From Corallium rubrum (Eukaryota; Cnidaria; Anthozoa; Scleralcyonacea; Coralliidae), in NCBI GenBank assembly GCA_964035015.1, contig OZ036007.1:13210141-13274140 (forward strand): a DNA stretch of 64,000 bases. Reading direction: 5' to 3'. The position numbers were made by a program, and so were the translations under genes. Of this stretch, positions 35,666 to 36,352 are shown one piece after another. A model generated the notes under the pieces. That model was not told the DNA's origin. It worked only from the letters and a program-made list of their open reading frames with translations, and did not search any database. Each line of letters begins with the position of its first letter. The first letter of the stretch is position 1.

Positions 35666-35847
35666 AGATATCGCTCTATGACCTTTAGGTCATATTGAGC
35701 GCTCTACAGGATGAGCCATTGCCGCTTACGCATTGTGCGCACGCTCACTGCTTGCAGTTTGAGCGCTCTGGCATGGTTTTGATGTCCCACATTTTGTGAG
35801 GCATCAAAGGTGACTCATAAGCAGTTACCTTCATCCTGCTCATCAGC

Positions 35848-35893
35848 ACTACACTGATGAGGCCCAAAAGGCCGAAACGGTACCGTCTGTAGT
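35848..35893 (+). ncRNA. Hammerhead ribozyme 1 (type I)
   Basis: Stem I is ACTACA (35848-35853) with TGTAGT (35888-35893). The core CTGATGA is at 35854-35860. Stem II is GGCC/GGCC with loop CAAAA, then GAAA at 35874-35877. Stem III is CGG-TA-CCG, and the cleavage site follows GTC at 35887. All conserved core bases are present. The two-base stem III loop and the self-complementary CGGTACCG suggest action as a dimer. Confidence 0.9.
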
Positions 35894-36076
35894 TAGATAT
35901 CGCTCTATGACCTTTAGGTCATATTGAGCGCTCTACAGGATGAGCCATTGCCGCTTACGCATTGTGCGCACGCTCACTGCTTGCAGTTTGAGCGCTCTGG
36001 CATGGTTTTGATGTCCCACATTTTGTGAGGCATCAAAGGTGACTCATAAGCAGTTACCTTCATCCTGCTCATCAGC

Positions 36077-36122
36077 ACTACACTGATGAGGCCCGAAAGG
36101 CCGAAACGGTACCGTCTGTAGT
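36077..36122 (+). ncRNA. Hammerhead ribozyme 2 (type I)
   Basis: Same fold as copy 1, with stem II loop CGAAA; predicted cleavage after 36116. Confidence 0.9.
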
Positions 36123-36305
36123 TAGATATCGCTCTATGACCTTTAGGTCATATTGAGCGCTCTACAGGATGAGCCATTGCCGCTTACGCATTGTGCGCAC
36201 GCTCACTGCTTGCAGTTTGAGCGCTCTGGCATGGTTTTGATGTCCCACATTTTGTGAGGCATCAAAGGTGACTCATAAGCAGTTACCTTCATCCTGCTCA
36301 TCAGC

Positions 36306-36351
36306 ACTACACTGATGAGGCCCGAAAGGCCGAAACGGTACCGTCTGTAGT
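36306..36351 (+). ncRNA. Hammerhead ribozyme 3 (type I)
   Basis: Same fold, identical in the core to copy 2; predicted cleavage after 36345. The TA tract begins directly after stem I. Confidence 0.9.
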
Positions 36352-36352
36352 T

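Follow-up and report, generated by a model that had tools for sequence, protein, structure and literature searches.

Positions 35666-36352 of the DNA analysed (a stretch of 64 kb, hereafter the window) consist of exactly three head-to-tail units of 229 bp, and the array they form is very probably a non-autonomous metazoan non-LTR retrozyme, whose RNA circle or multimer would have been reverse-transcribed into a (TA)n tract by a borrowed enzyme. The same reading had been given in the original prediction, and the anatomy of the locus supports it as the best fit: type I hammerheads, a tandem array with the appropriate period, no evident gene and a self-paired unit. Retrozymes have been in print as a class since 2016-2020, and the known class explains the array, which is filed there by anatomy as a clean, almost unmutated, fresh example and not as a new kind of system. 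How metazoan retrozymes enter genomes, and whose enzyme they use, is left open in the portions of PMC7229834 and related papers considered here, and a near-unmutated array of whole laps, ending cleanly within a simple repeat, gives a testable prediction on this point.

Structure and surroundings of the array

The three direct repeats with a constant 229-base period that had been predicted were confirmed by base-by-base comparison and by Tandem Repeats Finder (35665-36358, period 229, 3.0 copies, 99% matches). The description of the units as 'exact 229-nt monomers' held for their length (3 x 229) and failed at one base: units 2 and 3 are identical, while unit 1 carries A at 35866, in the loop of hammerhead stem II, where units 2 and 3 have G at the matching place. 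The 229-bp periodicity extends one base past the array on each side. The GC content of the units is 0.493-0.498, compared with 0.389 for the 64-kb window. When one unit was compared by BLAST with the remainder of the window, no second copy emerged (best E 1.7, i.e. chance level). The coordinates of the features are collected in Table 1.

Table 1. Features of the array and of its immediate flanks; ribozymes, cleavage sites and RNA products are predicted.
Feature	Positions	Strand	Remarks
Putative retrozyme array, three 229-bp units	35666..36352	+	3 x 229, one differing base
(TA)n tract, left of array	35567..35665	.	~100 bp
(TA)n tract, right of array	36352..36398	.	47 bp
Type I hammerhead ribozyme 1	35848..35893	+	RF00163 31.0 bits, E 1.4e-5; predicted cleavage after 35887
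Type I hammerhead ribozyme 2	36077..36122	+	RF00163 27.4 bits, E 2.1e-4; predicted cleavage after 36116
Type I hammerhead ribozyme 3	36306..36351	+	RF00163 27.4 bits, E 2.1e-4; predicted cleavage after 36345
Predicted 229-nt monomer A	35888..36116	+	cleavage 1 to cleavage 2
Predicted 229-nt monomer B	36117..36345	+	cleavage 2 to cleavage 3; sequence identical to A
Palindromic stem III strand ACGGTACCGT, 10 nt	36106..36115, also at 35877 and 36335	+	hairpin 0.0, duplex -16.4 kcal/mol
CTCATCAG, exact complement of catalytic CTGATGAG	36068..36075, also 35839, 36297	+	seven bases pair with core in minimum-energy fold

Some metazoan retrozymes have target-site duplications, of more than 4 bp; because both flanks of the array are (TA)n, a target-site duplication cannot be read there. 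Pure TA tracts of at least 20 bp make up 0.8% of the window (n = 10). Six of the 10, including the two that flank the array, fall within 35567-38298, where other repeats likewise adjoin TA tracts; because of this clustering along other repeats, the position of the array points only weakly to (TA)n as a target.

Predicted hammerhead ribozymes

Every unit contains stem I ACTACA/TGTAGT, the core CTGATGA, stem II GGCC/GGCC, GAA, a short stem III around GTAC, and GTC, and judging from these elements each of the three can form a complete type I hammerhead fold. The claim of one complete type I hammerhead per repeat was thus borne out in all three units, by the covariance model RF00163 and by two pattern scans. 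The pattern CTGATGAG..CGAAAC..GTC occurs three times in the 64 kb, always inside the array, against 0.01 occurrences expected from 100 shuffles, and a scan demanding the core and stems I and II (not stem III) returned the same three sites and no other on either strand of the whole window. The predicted cleavage sites fall at the positions given originally.

Support from the covariance model is moderate. The check proposed in the original prediction did return RF00163 matches in a search of 35600-36450 (851 bases), with E values from 1.4e-5 to 2.1e-4, and all of them score below the gathering score of the model, 34 bits; the refuting outcome named there, absence of a covariance-model hit, thus did not occur. 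In the whole window, Rfam gave no match at the gathering threshold, and in a permissive scan the array showed only RF02275, another hammerhead family (E 0.2, 0.74 and 2.3). The pestivirus, Plasmodium and microRNA rows reported by Rfam around the array overlap the TA tracts, and none of them reaches its gathering score. No other hammerhead was found in the window by the two patterns, which motifs devoid of stem III could escape, or in the Rfam lists (36400-42000 included), and Rfam showed no minus-strand ribozyme in the array.

When the 81-nt stretch around ribozyme 2 was folded with the hammerhead imposed, stem I was flanked by an internal loop and by an outer stem of 3 bp (AUC/GAU); the constrained circle does not have this outer stem, and the tertiary contacts between loops I and II of a canonical hammerhead are outside the scope of such a computation. 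As for hammerhead 3, its 3' flank is (TA)n, so that it lacks the outer portion of stem I that the other units can form, and it may be a weaker ribozyme, its natural 3' flank having been replaced by the TA tract.

The palindromic stem III strand deserves a separate comment. Its hairpin has three pairs and a GUAC tetraloop and is worth 0.0 kcal/mol alone, whereas ACGGTACCGT is a perfect 10-nt palindrome with a strong duplex. Since stem III is weak alone and its strand is palindromic, pairing between two hammerheads is plausible, and pairing of ACGGTACCGT in trans could form a dimeric hammerhead. The original prediction had called dimeric cleavage likely; the short, self-complementary stem III on which it relied is there, and the cleavage itself is plausible and unproven. 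There is a precedent in the axolotl, where both hammerheads (one or two stem III pairs and a tetraloop) are described as cutting far better as dimers (PMC7229834), while most invertebrate retrozyme hammerheads are said, in the abstract of the same paper, to cut efficiently.

Predicted RNA products, folding and coding capacity

Because no cleavage site is present upstream of unit 1, the three sites can delimit only two exact monomers, and two 229-nt RNAs (monomers A and B), instead of three, would come free from a read-through transcript. The predicted fold of monomer A is unusually stable. As a circle, its minimum free energy is -85.8 kcal/mol, compared with -59.7 (sd 4.5) in 200 dinucleotide shuffles (z -5.7); as a linear molecule it is -88.9 kcal/mol (z -5.0), and in either form none of the 200 shuffles was as low.

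In the minimum-energy fold of the unit the catalytic core is sequestered by CTCATCAG, the two forming a hairpin of seven pairs, although eight bases are complementary; CTCATCAG is also found once outside the array, at 59209. On secondary-structure energies alone, i.e. without tertiary contacts, alternative folds beat the hammerhead in the circle (by 7.8 kcal/mol), in the 81-nt stretch (6.0) and in the array transcript (8.4), and even for the bare 46-nt motif the alternative is 1.6 lower (-12.0 vs -10.4 kcal/mol). A built-in off-switch, in which CTCATCAG would block CTGATGAG, was considered and dropped, because the cost to the hammerhead was equalled or exceeded in 43 of 300 shuffles of the body of the circle and in 58 of 500 shuffles of the 30 upstream bases of the local stretch.

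The prediction that no protein is encoded is supported: the unit has no evident gene, the longest stop-free stretches around the circle being 37 codons on the plus strand and 57 on the minus strand (the latter frame lies outside the family scan described below). Simple patterns for the Pol III A- and B-boxes matched neither strand of the unit, and a scan with bacterial settings detected no tRNA gene in the window.

Comparison with known retrozymes

The array was placed among the metazoan non-LTR retrozymes because it agrees with those described in the cited part of PMC7229834 in size, in topology, in its tandem layout and in having no genes. According to this source, the units of metazoan retrozymes range from 150 to 450 bp; those of a coral (Acropora) are 220-240 bp long and occur as dimers to 62-mers, with a like architecture in jellyfish, sea anemones, mussel and axolotl, and circular RNAs have been demonstrated in coral, mussel and axolotl. 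The closest likeness is to the Acropora millepora-type retrozymes (Cervera and de la Pena 2020, PMC7229834), which share with the array a type I hammerhead in each unit, a short tandem layout, the unit size (229 bp in the array), the absence of a gene and a highly self-paired RNA, a likeness known from anatomy and not from sequence comparison. Two differences should be noted. The GC content of metazoan retrozymes is given as below 50% in the text and below 45% in the legend of Figure 1C of PMC7229834, so that the array (49.3-49.8%) stands at the upper edge, narrowly under the first limit and above the second. In addition, most of the circles published there are described as leaving the core free, whereas the minimum-energy circle of the array hides it.

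Plant LTR retrozymes, as described in the portions of PMC4918200 and PMC7761336 considered, are also non-coding hammerhead elements with circular RNA intermediates, but their hammerheads are of type III and lie about 700 bp apart, and they possess LTRs, PBS/PPT and target-site duplications of 4 bp. Their type III hammerhead is absent from the array, which matches the type I model, with stem I open. For Nematostella repeats, LINE-like target-site duplications of 15 bp are reported (PMC4918200).

Ends of the array and proposed mechanism

On the unit circle the two ends of the array coincide: both fall between TGTAGTT and AGATATC, with TA common to flank and unit. This point is about 7 nt downstream of the cleavage site (6-8, with an ambiguity of one base per side), so that the downstream strand of stem I is present after all the cleavage junctions, even the third. 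The ends of a linear monomer made by the ribozyme would be those left by cleavage, unlike the ends of the array, and the template would therefore have spanned the cleavage junction. This points to the copying of a circle or an uncleaved multimer and not of a linear cleaved monomer; duplication of an earlier insertion at the DNA level is the alternative. The agreement in phase is only suggestive, because the unit circle holds 12 TA dinucleotides and, given that both ends fall on TA and all TA are equally likely, the same phase is expected by chance about 1 time in 12.

We infer the following sequence of events. Read-through transcripts would fold a type I hammerhead in every unit, and the hammerheads would cut after GTC, freeing 229-nt RNAs that a host RNA ligase would close into circles. 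A borrowed reverse transcriptase, most likely from a Penelope-like or a LINE element, would then make DNA at an AT-rich target, reading more than one lap of the circle (or of a multimer left uncut), and the outcome would be the three-lap insertion inside the (TA)n tract, with the element being mobile in this way.

A tentative and rather doubtful extension of this scheme is that the shared end phase marks a preferred start and stop of reverse transcription: the UA-rich stretch outside stem I (UAGAUAU) might pair with nicked (TA)n, and the enzyme, after three whole laps, might exit at the same place. If so, the array would preserve in the genome a direct record of a ribozyme circle being reverse-transcribed lap after lap, and the element would usually insert into (TA)n tracts. 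The prediction is that both ends of other copies fall close to the UA-rich stretch next to stem I and that these copies lie within TA tracts, the insertion model expecting ends clustered at TAGATATC with TA-tract flanks; if other copies agree, the number of laps and the end phase would reveal the priming rule of the helper. The end phase and the TA-tract setting, both resting on one locus, are the only features that might add to the known class, and no mention of TA tracts as targets of animal retrozymes was found in the titles and abstract openings of the open-licence papers surveyed.

The whole number of units and their near identity could also reflect recent tandem duplication, in which case the array would be ordinary local satellite DNA, a single hammerhead unit having been multiplied by unequal crossing-over or slippage with no RNA step in the making of the array. 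The TA shared by the junctions and the flanks, and the absence of another copy in the 64-kb window, fit this account too. We nevertheless consider it unlikely, since the hammerhead is intact in three of three units, the fold of the unit is much more stable than those of its shuffles, and a founding unit would still need both its ends about 7 nt downstream of the cleavage site. It should be noted that the two explanations overlap if a retrozyme was the source of the founding unit.

Putative helper enzyme and other possible origins

The retrozyme reading calls for a helper, and a family scan of the window ORFs (57 of 150; at least 75 aa, past a low-complexity filter; best 25 of 29 families) found reverse transcriptase in six of the 57. 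By our reading of the partner domains, they include LINE- and Gypsy-type enzymes. In the literature considered, Penelope-like elements are favoured as helpers of animal retrozymes (PMC7229834), and Gypsy has been proposed for plant retrozymes (PMC7761336). The one Penelope-like enzyme described in PMC11167929 prefers AT-rich DNA, in line with the setting of the array, and starts copying inside the RNA, at a site not homologous to the cut DNA. The helper is not nameable from the window ORFs.

A LINE enzyme might have laid down the array together with the LINE-like fragment upstream, by template switching in (TA)n, which would be a variant of the retrozyme explanation and does not exclude it. 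A reading frame on the same strand ends at 35495, and after it come CATCATCATCAT and the (TA)n tract; Pfam gave no match to this ORF, 'LINE' being the reading of the original prediction and our own. We regard a joint insertion as quite improbable: about 100 bp of (TA)n lie in between, the arrangement is explained equally well if the two inserted separately into a TA-rich site, and the 3'-end motif occurs once in the window, with no second case for comparison.

The array might, instead, be a piece of a Penelope-like element or of a Terminon. The pseudo-LTRs of these elements carry type I hammerheads, which in Penelope-like elements stand in tandem (PMC7761336). However, Penelope-like elements and Terminons encode proteins, and their hammerheads are described in the cited part of PMC7761336 as minimal, without helix III or loop contacts, while helix III of the array, weak as it is, can have three pairs and a tetraloop. 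Moreover, no GIY-YIG domain was found among the best 25 of 29 families in the 57 of 150 window ORFs scanned, and the array has no single frame joining it to reverse transcriptase. An origin of this kind therefore appears very improbable.

Least probable of all is that a viroid-like RNA with replication of its own became integrated here, for, while the small non-coding unit, its strong self-pairing and the self-cleaving motif would suit such an RNA, hammerheads were found on one strand only, and three exact-pattern scans of a viral contig collection, not expected to be rich in such RNAs, gave 0 matches. One pattern was also run on prokaryote genome contigs and gave 0 matches, which says little, as an animal element is not expected there.

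Other features of the window

Trypsin, EGF and fibrinogen C domains, all of animal type, had one member each among the 57 ORFs scanned. They suggest an animal genome, as a metazoan retrozyme would require, perhaps that of a cnidarian if the unit size, among other things, is a guide. A long frame on the minus strand at 43659-46799 combines reverse transcriptase with a weak tyrosine-recombinase match (Phage_integrase, 19.8 bits against a cut-off of 27.1) and is possibly a DIRS-like element.

The region downstream of the array holds further repeats. The element at 36783-37506, present in two copies (Tandem Repeats Finder: 1.8 copies, period 403, 95% matches) and bordered by TA tracts, resembles by eye a non-autonomous DNA transposon. 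An imperfect inverted repeat starting with GTGTTTCATCAGGGGAATCCAAACAC, also recognized by eye, spans 36660-36770 and is a possible small inverted-repeat transposon. At 38060-38230 there is, again by eye, a long near-perfect palindrome with a tiny loop, to which Rfam assigned microRNA matches below the gathering scores. Many microRNA family matches, on both strands and all below gathering scores, as a palindrome might give, were also recorded at 61483-61602. Finally, a large minisatellite with a 24-bp unit (52.6 copies; Tandem Repeats Finder) occupies 29257-30515, and units that resemble it by eye are present at 30893-31166 and 55830-55904.
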